A stretch of 16,535 bases of DNA, from positions 1 through 16,535 of the forward strand of contig JAMOVB010000008.1 in assembly GCA_027061705.1 (NCBI GenBank). The letters run 5' to 3'. Source of the stretch: Desulfurococcales archaeon. Lineage in GTDB: Archaea; Thermoproteota; Thermoprotei_A; Sulfolobales; NBVN01. Below the pieces are notes generated by a model. It was not told the DNA's origin, did no database searches, and saw only the letters and a list, made by a program, of their open reading frames with translations. Below are positions 3,115 through 6,808 of this stretch, in pieces. The translations under genes were made by a program, and so were the position numbers. The stretch's first letter is position 1; each line of letters starts with the position of its first letter.

Positions 3115-3534
3115 CGGAGGCGGCCACCCCCGAGCACTGCATCCGAGCCGGGCTCCGAGGACCTTCGAGAGCTTCAGCACCACCTAAGCAGGCTCTACCG
3201 CATCGGGGAGCTCACACGGAGGCTTGACGGGGAGGGCCTGAGCCGCAGGGAGTTTGCGGAGCTCGTGGGTCTTGTCAAGAATGTGGTTGCCCAGGCATGG
3301 GTAGAGGTGCGCGCCCTCAATGATCTTCCCTAAGCTGATGTGGAACTAGCGGTAGTGTTACTGGAGGTTCATTCCTCGACCTTGGTTCAGGATCCGGTGG
3401 CTCTTATTAAATTAGCGCGTATCTGCATGTGCCGTTATACTGCGTATCTTTATACCGAGGCCAAGATATTCCGCTGGTTACTGGATGAGGTCTCTGATGC
3501 TATGTTGCGATTAGAGTGTGCTATGTTATGAGGG
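3115..3534 (+). pseudogene. interrupted small ORF: single frame with in-frame TAA at 3331, no usable start
   Basis: One plus-strand frame runs from 3115 (after TAA 3112-3114) to TGA 3532-3534, broken only by TAA at 3331-3333. The first part reads ...DLRELQHHLSRLYRIGELT... through VAQAWVEVRALNDLP. After the stop it continues in the same frame with ADVELAVVLLEV... to LRLECAML. Both halves look like one helical, Leu-rich protein of about 140 residues. No ATG, GTG or TTG is available near the GGAGG at 3116-3120, so the N-terminal half lacks a normal start. The downstream half could start at GTG 3340 (63 aa). The first half is GC-rich and the second less so. A decayed gene is the best reading; a real 63-aa gene at 3340-3534 is the alternative. 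Function unknown. Confidence 0.4.
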
Positions 3535-3637
3535 GTTAATTCTTCGAGTAGTTGCGGTTATTTGATGAAGGGAGAATTCCAAGAAATATCCTTATGAACT
3601 GACGCAATAGCTTTAGCTTTCCTGCTGGGTTGTGTTT

Positions 3638-4036
3638 TTACTTGATTATGCGGTTTATCTTGATCCTTAATTGGTCATTGCAGTTAGCTATGTTAACGCT
3701 GGCGTTTCTGTAGGTGTTCTTTATCTCCTGCTGTAGTTTGAGTATTAGCTTGTATTCTTGAGTACCTATAGCCCTACTGAAGTGGATGAAGCCTACTACA
3801 GCCTTAATATTCTCAAGGCTTGTTTTGGAGAGCCGCTCTACCTCGTTAATTACTTCCCTGTTATGCATGAGTTGACGTATGGTGTTCTTAACTTGGTCTA
3901 GATCCCTCTTCTTAACTCTTCGCACATCCTCAACCACTATCACGTATCCCTCGCTACATACTAGTAGGTAGTCAGCGCGCGTGATGTTGGCTAGGCTCCT
4001 TAACGCGTCGAGCGAGATCCTTACGCAATTAAGCAT
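3638..4036 (-). CDS. small partner protein of the AAA ATPase, possibly nuclease-like (132 aa)
   Basis: The ATG at 4036 follows the ATPase stop by 3 bases (TAGGGAATG), so the two genes are almost certainly co-translated. I do not recognise a named family. The order helix (ISLDALRSL), strand (ADYLLVCSEG), strand (YVIVVEDVRRVKK) and helix (DLDQVKNTIRQL) resembles a PD-(D/E)xK nuclease core. D22 would sit at the motif II position and E36-D37 with K42/K43 around motif III, but the canonical E-x-K spacing is not exact, so catalysis is unproven. A second strand-like segment (KAVVGFIHFSRAI) and a basic tail (LRIKINRIIK) follow. Small accessory proteins coupled to SMC-like ATPases are common in prokaryotic defence modules. 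A substrate-recognition rather than catalytic role is equally possible. Confidence 0.8.
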   Translation of the reverse strand: MLNCVRISLDALRSLANITRADYLLVCSEGYVIVVEDVRRVKKRDLDQVKNTIRQLMHNREVINEVERLSKTSLENIKAVVGFIHFSRAIGTQEYKLILKLQQEIKNTYRNASVNIANCNDQLRIKINRIIK

Positions 4037-4039
4037 TCC

Positions 4040-5392
4040 CTATATCCCCGCTCTTACCTCTACGAGCTCCTCAGCCACTTTGACGAATTCACCCTCATCT
4101 ATGCCCTCATCGGTTATCCTTAGAGGCTCAGTAACAGCAGCTTCTTCACTAACCCTTATGAGGTAAGCAACCACTTTGTTTGGATCGAGTAACTCCTCAT
4201 CACTCAGCCCTAACTCCCCAGCCCTCTCACGCCTCTTTGAGAGTGATATTAGATTGTTAATGCTATACACTAAGTAATCGCTATGCGTTGTCATGATTAC
4301 GTACTTACCCAGCGCGTTTATCGATCTAGCAACCAACCTAGCGAGAACTACCTGAGCTCTAGGATGTAAATGCGCTTCAGGCTCCTCAATAATGACTATG
4401 TATGGAGCGTCCCTACTACTCAACGATAATGCTAGCGCCACACTCTCCCTAACACCTGAGGGTGCTTGAGGTAGAGAGAGCTCCTTGCCGCTCCACGACT
4501 TAACACGAATTACGTAAACACCGCTTTCAACATCCACCCTTAAATCACATCCCAGCTCATTAAGAAACTCCTTAGTGAATTCTAGATTAACCCTGCCGTC
4601 ATGAAGCATCTCACACAGCCTATAATACAGCCTCATGAACTGTTCATCAGGATATGAAATGCCCTTAACAACCCTAGGGCTTACGTAAGGCTTGAGTAGG
4701 GTTCGGGAGATCCCCGCCCTACTGTCAACTAGTAACGCGGCAAACTCCTCAGTGCTGAAGAGAGGCTTAAAGGAGTTGACTACATAGTGAGCTAAAGCTT
4801 TCAGCACGACATCGTAATATACGTCATATGAACTAGTGATCCTGCCTCTAAAGATCTCTTCGGAGCCGTGCTTAATGTTGAGCACATTACCCTTCAGAAC
4901 ATCTACCTTAATGTTCTGAAGGTACTGCATGTAATTACCTGGGCCCTCAACGCTGATATCATTACCTTTAAAATTGATGATTAGGTGAGCATGTGAACCA
5001 TGAACCTCTACCCTACCGGCGTTAGCATTAACTCTGATTAAGTCCTTTAACTCGGACATGAATACCCTAGGAAGTAACGTTCTCAATGAAGCCTCAATCG
5101 CTAGAGGCAATGATTCAATATATAGCTTAAGCAGAGATACTAGCTCGTTGCTGGGGCTCTCTCCCTTATTAACCTTTCCTAAAACACTATTCACTAGGTC
5201 ATCAGAACCCCTCTTCACAACTTCATCTAACAATACACCTATGTCTGGCTCGGCAGCTGTGAGGGACCATAGGAGGTAAGCGAGGAATGACTTACCCACG
5301 CTATTCTTACCAATAAGTAGGGTAAGAGGCTTCAAACGTATCTCAGCACGTTTGAAAGGGCCTAAGTCACTAATTACAACCCTGCTACTCAT
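4040..5392 (-). CDS. SMC/ABC-like AAA ATPase (AAA_15/AAA_21 type), about 450 aa
   Basis: This is a stand-alone ABC-type ATPase related to the OLD/RecF/SMC group. With the longest start as residue 1, Walker A is GKNSVGKS (30-37), an ABC signature-like SGVRES lies at 314-319, Walker B is YIVIIEEPEAHLHP (333-346), and the H-loop is MTTHSDYLV (369-377). The order fits a globular head with an inserted middle region (about 50-300) and no long coiled coil. There is no TOPRIM domain, which separates it from OLD nucleases. Starts at GTG 5398, TTG 5395 and ATG 5392 are all in frame; I prefer the ATG. It is coupled to the 132-aa gene immediately downstream. ATPase plus small partner pairs of this kind are often anti-phage or anti-plasmid modules, but that role is inferred. 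Its GC content is lower than that of the flanking metabolic genes, consistent with an accessory island. Confidence 0.88.
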   Translation of the reverse strand: MSSRVVISDLGPFKRAEIRLKPLTLLIGKNSVGKSFLAYLLWSLTAAEPDIGVLLDEVVKRGSDDLVNSVLGKVNKGESPSNELVSLLKLYIESLPLAIEASLRTLLPRVFMSELKDLIRVNANAGRVEVHGSHAHLIINFKGNDISVEGPGNYMQYLQNIKVDVLKGNVLNIKHGSEEIFRGRITSSYDVYYDVVLKALAHYVVNSFKPLFSTEEFAALLVDSRAGISRTLLKPYVSPRVVKGISYPDEQFMRLYYRLCEMLHDGRVNLEFTKEFLNELGCDLRVDVESGVYVIRVKSWSGKELSLPQAPSGVRESVALALSLSSRDAPYIVIIEEPEAHLHPRAQVVLARLVARSINALGKYVIMTTHSDYLVYSINNLISLSKRRERAGELGLSDEELLDPNKVVAYLIRVSEEAAVTEPLRITDEGIDEGEFVKVAEELVEVRAGI

Positions 5393-5421
5393 CAACACAC
5401 CAACGAAGTATTGCCTACTAG

Positions 5422-5432
5422 ACCTAAAAACA
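5422..5432 (-). promoter_or_regulatory. possible TATA box for the ATPase operon
   Basis: On the minus strand this reads GTTTTTAGG, about 30-38 bases before the ATG at 5392, which would give a very short or no leader. The match to the archaeal TATA consensus is partial and no clear BRE stands out. A TATATG stretch near 5490 is an alternative. Confidence 0.3.
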
Positions 5433-5551
5433 CTGGCACCAGCCCCTCATGGCCAAGTAGTTACTCTATCTTCTTAAACCATTTGCATATAGAGAATCCC
5501 AAGCTTATTACTGAGTAACTGAAGGCATAACAAAAGAAGAGCTGCGATGAA

Positions 5552-5625
5552 TTGCCGCCGGGGATGTGGACTCCGCGGTGAGGGGAGATGATCCGTGGAG
5601 GGTTCCCGTGACCTGGCGGGAACCC
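5552..5625 (+). ncRNA. structured element, copy A: two-stem hairpin, candidate plus-strand RNA
   Basis: The outer stem pairs 5555-5562 (CCGCCGGG) with 5612-5619 (CCTGGCGG). The inner stem pairs 5571-5578 (CTCCGCGG) with 5593-5600 (CCGTGGAG). Internal-loop strands are 8 and 11 bases and the apical loop is TGAGGGGAGATGAT. Two positions (5560/5614 and 5575/5596) are G.U on the plus strand and A.C on the minus, so only a plus-strand RNA pairs fully. A related element with the same layout lies at 6152-6218. A competing perfect 9-bp hairpin (5600-5608 with 5617-5625) is also present here. It starts 2 bases after the stop of the minus-strand pseudogene. It could instead be DNA structure at a mobile-element end. 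No known RNA family recognised. Confidence 0.5.
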
Positions 5626-5626
5626 A

Positions 5627-5940
5627 TCACCTCTCAGACCTCCTTGGCTCTTCTTCAAACCTCTTGGGCCTCTCCTGAAGTACTACTCTGAAGTAATTTG
5701 CCAGGTTGTCGGTAAGTAGCATCAGCCTTCTGTGGTGTTTGTGCCTAATTCTCTCCGCAGCAATTATCGGCACGTCTACCCTCTTAGCCATGCTTACTAG
5801 CTTGTCATCCACTAGCATCGCTGAAGGTCTCAGCTGAGCAGCGAACTCAAGCGCAGCGTCCTTGCTCGTGAAGATCCTTATATTAGAGTAGGTAATCCGA
5901 GACTCTCAGGAAGCGCATAGGGAACTTGGCTTCATCCTGA
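5627..5940 (-). pseudogene. broken paralogue (copy A) of the small gene at 6223-6627
   Basis: The reading frame 5905-5627 ends in a segment strongly similar to the end of the neighbouring gene: LMLLTDNLANYFRVVLQERP here against LITIADNLANHFRILLKEKP there, with LVDDKL against IIDDKL further up. The similarity then jumps frame near 5883-5905. Upstream sequence translated in another frame gives EAKFPMRFLRVSDY, matching KAAYLRFFVRRYSK of the intact-looking copy. Further decayed traces appear towards 6000. No proper start remains; a 63-residue ORF from the ATG at 5818 is all that could be made. It is therefore a frameshifted duplicate. Function unknown. The first half of this stretch shows no other gene, and the hairpin element begins just after its stop. 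Confidence 0.65.
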
Positions 5941-6113
5941 GGTGTAGATCCTTGAGATGCTTAGCTCATGAGGTACGGTTAAGGAGCCATAGGCTTACGC
6001 ATTTCCTTAGGGTAAGAAGTGCGTCTACGTCTCAGCGGCTGGGGAAGGGTATGGAGGGATTGTGAAGCGGTCGGGGGTTTAAGAGGTAGGAAGGCTTTAT
6101 ACCTTCTCATGAT

Positions 6114-6126
6114 AATAAATTACTGG
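6114..6126 (+). promoter_or_regulatory. conserved TATA-like box upstream of hairpin copy B
   Basis: AATAAATTACTGG lies about 26-30 bases before the likely 5' edge of the 6152-6218 hairpin, and the sequence that follows (GAGTGACTGAGG) is conserved at the matching place ahead of copy A (TTATTACTGAGTAACTGAAG at 5504-5523). Conservation of this block in both units fits a plus-strand promoter. It could also simply be part of a longer duplicated element. Confidence 0.35.
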
Positions 6127-6151
6127 AGTGACTGAGGTAATTCCGACACGA

Positions 6152-6218
6152 ACCGCCGCGGAGTGGCCCCCGCGGTGAGGGAGGGATGAGCCGCGGGCTT
6201 CTGCCGTGACGCGGCGGT
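6152..6218 (+). ncRNA. structured element, copy B: two-stem hairpin, candidate plus-strand RNA
   Basis: The outer stem is a perfect 9 bp: 6152-6160 (ACCGCCGCG) with 6210-6218 (CGCGGCGGT). The inner stem is a perfect 7 bp: 6169-6175 (CCCGCGG) with 6191-6197 (CCGCGGG). The apical loop is TGAGGGAGGGATGAG, and the internal-loop strands are 8 and 12 bases, the longer ending in the conserved CCGTGA. Against copy A, pair C6159-G6211 is replaced by G5561-C5613 and C6169-G6197 by T5572-A5599. These are compensatory changes that support a conserved folded RNA. It begins 4 bases after the stop of the paralogous gene on the other strand. A DNA hairpin recognised by a transposase is the main alternative. 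Confidence 0.55.
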
Positions 6219-6222
6219 ATCC

Positions 6223-6627
6223 TCACTTCTCGAAACTCCTTAGCTCGTCTCCGAATTTTCTGGGCTTTTCCTTTAGGAGTATTCTGAAGTGGTTTGCTAG
6301 GTTGTCTGCTATGGTGATTAGGTTATTCATATACTTCGGCTTCGGCGCGCTCTCCAGTACTCTGGGTTCGTAACTCACGTGCCTGCTGAGCTTGTCGTCA
6401 ATGATTACTAGCGCTGGCCCGTATCTACGTAGAATGCCTTCCACCTCATCTACCGACCTAACAATCCTGACTAGGTCAAGCACTTCCCTAAGTTTGGAGT
6501 ACCTCCTAACGAAGAACCGCAAGTAAGCGGCCTTCCTATTAGAGGAAACCCTACGGAAATGCCTTAAACCTACGCATAGGCGGCCGAACATCCTACTCTT
6601 CAGCACATGCTCCCTAACACCAACCAA
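6223..6627 (-). CDS. small unrecognised protein, copy B of a tandem duplicate (134 aa from TTG; N-terminus probably lost)
   Basis: I do not recognise the family. The only usable start is TTG 6627, yet the same frame continues upstream with coding-like sequence LIIAIDISEDGAKVIAL (6675-6625). Its hydrophobic strand, Asp and Gly pattern recalls the first strand of RNase H/RuvC-like or actin-like folds. The frame stays open to 6765 without ATG or GTG, so the start may have been lost. Downstream come a basic helical stretch (RKAAYLRFFVRRYSKLREVL), a strand with two Asp (ALVIIDDKLSR) and a conserved C-terminal helix (ADNLANHFRILLKEKPRKF) shared with the broken copy at 5627-5940. Two separated acidic strands would suit a small RNase H-like nuclease, but this is inference. 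A conserved hairpin follows 4 bases after the stop, on the opposite strand's sense. Confidence 0.55.
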   Translation of the reverse strand: MVGVREHVLKSRMFGRLCVGLRHFRRVSSNRKAAYLRFFVRRYSKLREVLDLVRIVRSVDEVEGILRRYGPALVIIDDKLSRHVSYEPRVLESAPKPKYMNNLITIADNLANHFRILLKEKPRKFGDELRSFEK

Positions 6628-6706
6628 CGCTATTACCTTAGCTCCATCCTCGCTGATATCGATGGCGATTATCAGGTCGCTTAACCCACGCCACCTCGAA
6701 AGAACG

Positions 6707-6808
6707 CTATGGCTTGAGGTTCTTAAGTTTGTAGAACTTCCTCCGCAGTTTTCCTCTACTATTTCTCAGTTGGGTTTCGATAGTTTTCAGCTGCGTGGGG
6801 ATCTCGTC
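6707..6808 (-). other. coding-like remnant upstream of copy B (33 codons, no start)
   Basis: Between stops at 6809-6811 and 6707-6709 this frame reads DEIPTQLKTIETQLRNSRGK followed by a basic Leu/Lys-rich end, a convincing amphipathic helix or coiled coil. There is no start codon. It ends 32 bases upstream of the point where the copy B frame becomes coding-like, in a different frame. It may be the original N-terminal helix of that gene, separated by a frameshift, or chance. The rest of 6676-6959 shows nothing further beyond AT-rich sequence after the tRNA 3' end. Confidence 0.3.

Follow-up and report, generated by a model that had tools for sequence, protein, structure and literature searches.

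The antitoxins of type III toxin-antitoxin pairs consist of tandem repeats upstream of the toxin gene, and the ToxN fold differs from the RNase-H-like fold, while type I pairs with convergent 3' overlap also exist. The recombinases of IS110 elements, which use a bridge RNA, measure 300-460 residues (PMC11208160), and a Thermoproteota member is described for TIGR-Tas, in which an RNA with C/D-like motifs is joined by a RuvC-type nuclease (PMC12045711). For H/ACA RNAs, productive stems of about 10 pairs are given in PMC4652768. Here we describe a hairpin that occurs twice in a 16,535-nt stretch (the window, to which the coordinates refer) of contig JAMOVB010000008.1 from a Desulfurococcales archaeon (GCA_027061705.1), together with a gene (gene 2) whose product has a predicted RNase H fold; the labels L and G denote homologous loci and genomes, respectively. 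Comparison of homologous sequences indicates that the hairpin is a real, conserved RNA outside Rfam, present in hyperthermophilic archaea in a scattered pattern, and RNA and protein probably form a mobile ribonucleoprotein module. This adds an RNA family and a protein family that are absent from the libraries searched and are coupled in several Thermoproteota families.

Covariation and strand of the hairpin

An earlier note on this DNA had proposed, from the two copies, a structured RNA read from the plus strand, and had advised a covariance model search of archaeal genomes. We ran such a search with a model built from 11 copies, copy B of the window among them and copy A not. It located the hairpin 36 times among 214 genomes of the order, with 22 genomes and 16 of 78 genera represented. 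Of 398 genomes sampled across the phylum, 7 gave matches, and one of these (G402) lies outside the order. Apart from the window's own genome, a DNA search of 197 genomes of the order yielded matches (E≤0.001) at 14 places, including a spacer in an array of clustered regularly interspaced short palindromic repeats (CRISPR). Genomes contain up to three hairpin copies, and several copies are decayed.

For the structural analysis, 33 copies from 31 chosen sources were aligned to the covariance model (alignment A9). The CRISPR spacer, L012, was excluded, and A9 likewise omits the L071 second hairpin and four further copies (G025:C149, G116:C34, G003:C43, and G002:1866986). Standard pairs occupy 95.1% of the paired cells, compared to 79.7±1.0 in shuffles, and 11 of the 19 pairs show double-sided changes (91 cells, compared to 27±5), a number of pairs reached by 5 of 500 shuffles. 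Sliding the partners along the alignment lowers pairing to 32-58%. When the two subtypes are aligned by sequence only, 95.0% and 93.8% of the cells are paired and each alignment holds 11 double-change cells, compared to 3.5 and 4.0 in shuffles, although 71 of 500 shuffles match the number of double-change pairs of the larger one. A chance pair of hairpins is ruled out by the covariation in the 33-copy alignment.

At the gathering threshold, Rfam (4227 families) matched a tRNA as the sole hit in the whole window, and a permissive search of positions 5400-6300 (E≤5) returned two sub-threshold matches, both elsewhere (E 1.4 and 1.5). The distant RNAs described below gave a tRNA, a sub-threshold match to the C/D RNA sR41 (E 0.088, at L071 1321-1385), and nothing else. 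A known Rfam family was thus rejected for lack of an accepted match in the window, in 5400-6300, or in the distant RNAs, in agreement with the earlier note, which had recognised no family. The DNA pattern of the hairpin had no match in viral contigs, where exact matches only were asked for, so that this is not evidence of absence. In the literature, neither the RNA nor the protein is named in a title or abstract opening among the top-ranked papers, which is not proof of their being unpublished.

Both hairpins were found where they had first been placed (Table 1), and the following architecture can be read from their sequence: an outer stem P1 (8 bp), an internal loop with GAG or GAUG facing UGA, a helix P2, a 3' bulge, a helix P3 (7-8 bp), and an apical loop of 14-15 nt. 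P2, which is UGGC/GCCG in copy B, mostly consists of a U.G pair, two G-C pairs, and a fourth pair; among the 32 copies with letters at this last position, 21 have C-G and 9 have G-C. The paired changes between the copies, C6159-G6211 to G5561-C5613 and C6169-G6197 to U5572-A5599, are correct as originally described, as are the two G.U pairs of copy A (G5560.U5614 and G5575.U5596); the U.G pair at the base of P2 is a third pair of G.U type, common to both copies. Copy A retains its fold in 17 of 18 counted pairs, despite the broken gene beside it. The copies are 75% identical over 5555-5644, and their flanks, which hold the end of the same minus-strand gene, are equally similar. Because this similarity continues into the genes, the hairpin pair is a diverged duplicate of a gene-plus-hairpin unit.

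A UGA...UGA apical loop, resembling a kink-loop (K-loop) by sequence pattern, is present in 21 of the 33 copies. With its lower stem of about 8 bp and K-loop-like apex, the hairpin might be an H/ACA-like small RNA, carried on a mobile element and guiding pseudouridylation with the host machinery. P3, the U, and two G-A pairs of the copy B type add up to about 10 pairs, the productive stem length cited above (PMC4652768), and to 11 in the copy A type. Nevertheless, the pocket is closed by P2, one pair of which switches between C-G and G-C, no H/ACA family was matched in the Rfam searches, and an ACA within 4 nt of P1 occurs in 1 of the 33 copies. The H/ACA guide was rejected on this missing box, and we regard this reading as quite improbable. 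A kink-turn at the base of all copies is likewise not claimed, its standard form being seen by eye in L034 and L044 only.

The plus-strand pairing bias that the earlier note had pointed out is real but smaller than the two copies implied. All A9 pairs together contain 52 G.U and 20 A.C cells, and 20 and 10, respectively, once the outermost and the near-invariant U.G pairs are removed. Motifs that make sense on one strand appear from the alignment to be stronger evidence than this modest bias: 31 of 33 copies have G-A opposite G-A at their base, and 21 of 33 have the UGA...UGA loop. The U.G pair at the base of P2, conserved in 26 of 30 copies, is a further plus-strand feature. In 18 of 32 copies, the plus strand has a TATA-like box between -70 and -33 relative to P1 (one copy begins too near a contig end to be counted), compared to 7.5% of random windows and 16% of the copies' own windows after shuffling; copy A has no such site in this range. 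The reading as a structured plus-strand RNA is thus upheld by the covariation of further homologues, by the tandem G-A motifs, and by the TATA-like box at copy B.

The same features bear on whether there is an RNA gene at all, since a hairpin formed by the DNA itself, or one that serves the gene 2 mRNA on the minus strand in 3' processing or termination, could also sit right after a stop codon, with outer stems that form on either strand. The outermost P1 pair, which is A.C on the plus strand in 10 of the 33 copies, would fit such a hairpin, but the U.G pair, the G-A motifs, and the TATA-like box do not, and of the six copies without a matched gene, the two of L066 and that of L071 carry no remnant of one. 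We therefore find it highly improbable. Taken alone, folding energy is weak: on the plus strand z is -2.0 for copy A and -1.2 for copy B, on the minus strand it is about -0.5 for each, and copy A by itself has a lowest-energy fold other than the shared one; the structural support comes from the homologues.

Two observations concern hairpin surroundings at other loci. The 5' leader of L032, L037, and L048, which belong to one subgroup, contains an inverted repeat of the GTAACAACTGTTACAGTTGTTAC type, possibly an extra 5' hairpin. At L071 1501-1650, two hairpins of the family lie side by side, and no gene 2 was found nearby.

The RNase-H-fold gene and its coupling to the RNA

The statement of the earlier note that no nearby gene explains the hairpins is unsupported, because a conserved RNase-H-fold gene ends beside the hairpin and is coupled to the RNA, in a unit that behaves as mobile. 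The hairpin lies directly beyond the stop codon of a minus-strand frame, which is open at copy B and broken at copy A. A protein search of genome contigs gave 17 gene 2 loci, mostly from Desulfurococcales, Pyrodictiaceae, and other metagenome-assembled genomes of Thermoprotei; two, possibly misbinned, are labelled Woesearchaeota and Deltaproteobacteria. At 17 of 17 loci the gene end is followed by a hairpin of this type, with the RNA downstream of and convergent with gene 2 at each.

The gene 2 protein (about 155 residues, one compact model) has an RNase H fold in predicted structure, and the solved folds closest to the models, compared with VIA-align, are RNase HII/H3. The acidic residues D11, D98, E113, and D129 are present in 13 of 13 rows of alignment A7, and D98, E113, and D129 in 15 of 15 rows of alignment A10; purifying selection on the protein is evident at the sequence level. 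Pfam scans of 15 family members and 3 distant members gave no match, and no RNase HII profile matched the protein in Pfam, NCBIfam, or a profile search of PDB sequences. Profile searches of the family against PDB sequences produced nothing convincing, the viral structure library had no match at E≤0.001, and the defence library had none for three members. A link to phrog_31239 is weak but recurrent (10 of 15 members, best E 2.8e-9). DUF3800, considered for gene 2 because of its motif, had no Pfam match and one weak row in the viral structure library (E 0.13).

Distant relatives of gene 2 occur outside the order; in all, 9 of the 398 genomes of the phylum sample gave a match, as did 5 of 27 genomes of the order of G510. 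In the three of these five in which the downstream region was read (G510, G486, and G541), a conserved region of another kind, about 150 nt long and predicted to form two hairpins, follows the gene at the corresponding site and in the same orientation; it is supported by three sequences (28 pairs, 4 with two-sided changes). Distant genes with their own conserved region at the same site suggest that protein and RNA have long travelled together. In the distant branch at L132, L133, and L138, this different structured region of about 150 nt lies beyond the gene 2 stop and is read towards the gene.

No gene 2 match lies near 10 of the 36 RNA matches. The earlier note had held that its proposal would be refuted if the hairpin only ever occurred as the end of a mobile element; given these copies without a matched gene, that objection applies only by half. 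In the fold-retention count, from which the outermost pair was omitted and for which groups were assigned by hand, paired cells amount to 100 of 105 where the gene is absent (6 copies), 151 of 159 where it is broken (9 copies, including L040, classed as broken solely since its frame stops two residues early), and 314 of 320 where it is intact (18 copies). Since the model search favours intact folds, retention in the orphans is only suggestive. By eye, L075, L081, and L013 among the six gene-absent copies keep a trace of the gene end, whereas L066 (two copies) and L071 (two hairpins) keep none; this reading of remnants covered neither G116:C34, G003:C43, nor G002:1866986.

Gene 2 starts (n=21) show GGTG, then about 7 nt, then TTA in 10, ATA in 3, and TTG in 3 cases, and starts at TTA or ATA after GGTG may indicate weak, controlled initiation. 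Such odd start codons suggest tight expression control and would suit an antisense regulator that reduces gene 2 expression by pairing with the 3' end of its transcript, or by collision there, in the manner of type I toxin-antitoxin pairs. The convergent order, the hairpin beside the stop codon, and the TATA-like box that points towards gene 2 are in line with this. However, antisense action would not require a conserved fold, whereas this one shows strong covariation and is retained in the six counted copies without a matched gene, and we consider an antisense role unlikely.

A second gene, gene 1, encodes a 117-residue protein and is open upstream of gene 2 in L032, L037, L046, and G025:C149 and decayed elsewhere. 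Its profile matched 9 of 214 genomes; it gave no match at E≤0.001 in the window's own genome, and gene 1 was not found in phages and viral contigs. A calcineurin-like phosphoesterase lies near L154 (Pfam match) and, by similar sequence, L032, and, judging from DNA similarity, L034 and L046 may have the same region nearby; this neighbouring phosphoesterase matched PDC-S10 in the defence library (E 9.4e-8). Gene 1 and the phosphoesterase may be cargo or accessory parts. At L157 and L159, proteins distantly like gene 1 stand directly upstream of a large ATPase that is Rad50/SMC-like by eye.

Table 1. Features of the two gene-plus-hairpin units in the window
Feature	Position	Strand	Evidence and remarks
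Noncoding RNA hairpin, copy A	5555..5619	+	model match 48.9 bits (copy A outside model); adjoining gene broken
Gene 2 remnant (C-terminal half), beside copy A	5627..5887	-	broken reading frame
TATA-like box TTTATA	6096..6101	+	57 nt upstream of copy B P1
Noncoding RNA hairpin, copy B	6152..6218	+	segmentation; model match 90.3 bits (copy B in model); covariation
Copy B helices	P1 6153-6160/6210-6217 plus A6152-U6218; P2 6164-6167/6203-6206; P3 6169-6175/6191-6197		apical loop UGAGGGAGGGAUGAG
Gene 2, predicted RNase-H-fold protein	6223..6684	-	153 codons from TTA 6684, stop 6223-6225; convergent with copy B; structure model, fold comparison
GGTG motif before gene 2 start	6692-6695	-	sequence
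Gene 1 remnant (weak)	6713..6808	-	tblastn E 0.022 in a small set

Probable mobility and proposed role of the RNA

The patchy spread, the decayed copies, the differing neighbours, and the CRISPR spacer suggest that RNA and protein form a mobile module. The unit is flanked by an AAA ATPase and tRNA-Ser in the window, and by BrxL and a molybdopterin oxidoreductase at L047. In G184 (G184:C15:1-147, comprising L012 and L058), a short array end carries degenerate near-copies of the repeat from the 36-repeat array of the same genome, and one of its spacers is an 88% match to the hairpin across 42-44 nt, the next encoding a stretch that resembles gene 2. These spacers indicate that the unit or its carrier has been seen as foreign, rather than that the unit moves alone. 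A search of 26 genomes for an empty site of the G003 copy gave no clean one, the flanks in G014 lying on different contigs. No unit ends were found either; when several loci are compared, their DNA ceases to be similar near the GGTG motif on one side and at the hairpin on the other.

Two observations concern neighbouring DNA. At the G002 copy (L096, about 3264-4803), the hairpin and a decayed gene 2 adjoin CRISPR-like repeats, which were noticed by eye in the form of recurring peptide motifs. On the minus strand of the window, at 3638-5398, an AAA_15/AAA_21 ATPase gene precedes a gene of 132 residues, with which it may form a defence-type pair; L036 has a similar ATPase in its neighbourhood.

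The combination of an RNase-H-fold protein with a structured RNA at one end, in a unit that is small, decaying, patchy, and CRISPR-targeted, also brings to mind an RNA-guided or RNA-assisted mobile element, in which the protein would cut or move DNA with the RNA as its guide or scaffold, like OMEGA or IS110 systems. The 5' leader between the TATA-like box and P1 varies between loci, in line with this, but the folded part in A9 has no variable guide segment, the protein is a single compact model of about 155 residues, the RNA runs antisense towards the gene end, and neither element ends nor an empty site came to light. This makes a guide function rather unlikely in our view.

We tentatively favour, without calling it likely, a module in which the RNA binds and restrains the RNase-H-fold nuclease in a ribonucleoprotein. 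This proposal draws on the RNA, its coupling to the gene, the convergent order, purifying selection, decay, patchy spread, the CRISPR spacer, and the modelled fold of the protein. An RNA with a folded part of about 65-75 nt would be made from its own TATA-type promoter, towards the 3' end of gene 2. It would bind the gene 2 protein, probably with host L7Ae on the apical K-loop, and the bound RNA would hold the nuclease activity in check, like the RNA antitoxin of a type III pair. Restraint is favoured because the fold is conserved, because no variable guide segment is seen in it, and because the RNA outlasts the protein, as an antitoxin-like role predicts.

Several points weigh against this proposal. 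RNA binding, cleavage, and transcription are inferred rather than measured, and the same applies to L7Ae binding, restraint, and the mobility of the module. There is usually one hairpin, downstream and convergent, unlike the upstream tandem repeats of type III systems. A9 was fitted to the structure of the model, and the search that found the copies favours intact folds, also in the fold-retention count. The TATA-like motif was picked after viewing the flanks, and 14 of 32 copies, copy A included, are without it. The UGA...UGA loop is absent from 12 of the 33 copies, so L7Ae binding in that form is not general. On the protein side, 13 of the 21 gene 2 starts are TTA or ATA rather than a canonical start codon, 2 of 5 structure models are poor (predicted local distance difference test, pLDDT, of 60 and 46), and searches of phage, plasmid, and viral-contig collections turned up no relative at the sensitivity applied. 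Finally, the G184 spacer adjacent to the hairpin-like one resembles gene 2 by a weak match (tblastn E 0.087).

A more specific form of the restraint proposal is possible but doubtful. We hypothesize a new archaeal ribonucleoprotein module, in which a minimal RNase-HII-fold nuclease would work only with a dedicated convergent K-loop RNA on a host L7Ae platform. RNA and protein would have co-diverged widely in the phylum, with a single hairpin in one branch and a stretch of about 150 nt that forms two in another, and the RNA alone would be kept after protein loss. If RNA and nuclease do work together, they would form a hyperthermophile ribonucleoprotein with an RNase H fold and a very small size (about 155 residues and 70 nt), which bears on the origin of RNA-controlled nucleases.

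Comparison with known systems

The hairpin shares with H/ACA small RNAs the order of stem, internal loop, stem, and K-loop-like apex, with similar lengths, and differs from them in the missing ACA box (32 of 33 copies), in the extra helix P2 within the pocket, and in being tied to a protein gene. TIGR-Tas resembles the unit in having a Thermoproteota member and in pairing an RNA with a protein of RuvC type. Compared to TIGR-Tas, no array of interspaced guides was seen here (no dedicated array search was made), no Nop family appeared in the Pfam scans, and the closest folds are those of RNase HII/H3. From RNase HII and RNase H3 themselves, the gene 2 protein differs in being shorter and in matching no RNase HII profile, and its role as a nuclease is a prediction.

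OMEGA systems (TnpB/IscB) and IS110 with its bridge RNA resemble the unit in combining an RNase-H/RuvC-type fold with a structured RNA in a mobile setting. Nevertheless, gene 2 falls well below the 300-460 residues of IS110 recombinases (PMC11208160), has no Pfam match, and comes with no identified guide segment. The IS110 domains PF01548 and PF02371 were neither among the 16 Pfam families listed for the 15 members (E≤10) nor found for the 3 distant members.

Type III toxin-antitoxin systems of the ToxIN kind differ in having upstream tandem repeats, where this unit has a convergent downstream hairpin, and in the ToxN fold, where a RNase-H-like fold is predicted here. They are similar in combining a small nuclease-like protein with a dedicated structured RNA and in their patchy spread, and single copies of the unit lie near defence genes (BrxL) or CRISPR-like repeats (by eye).
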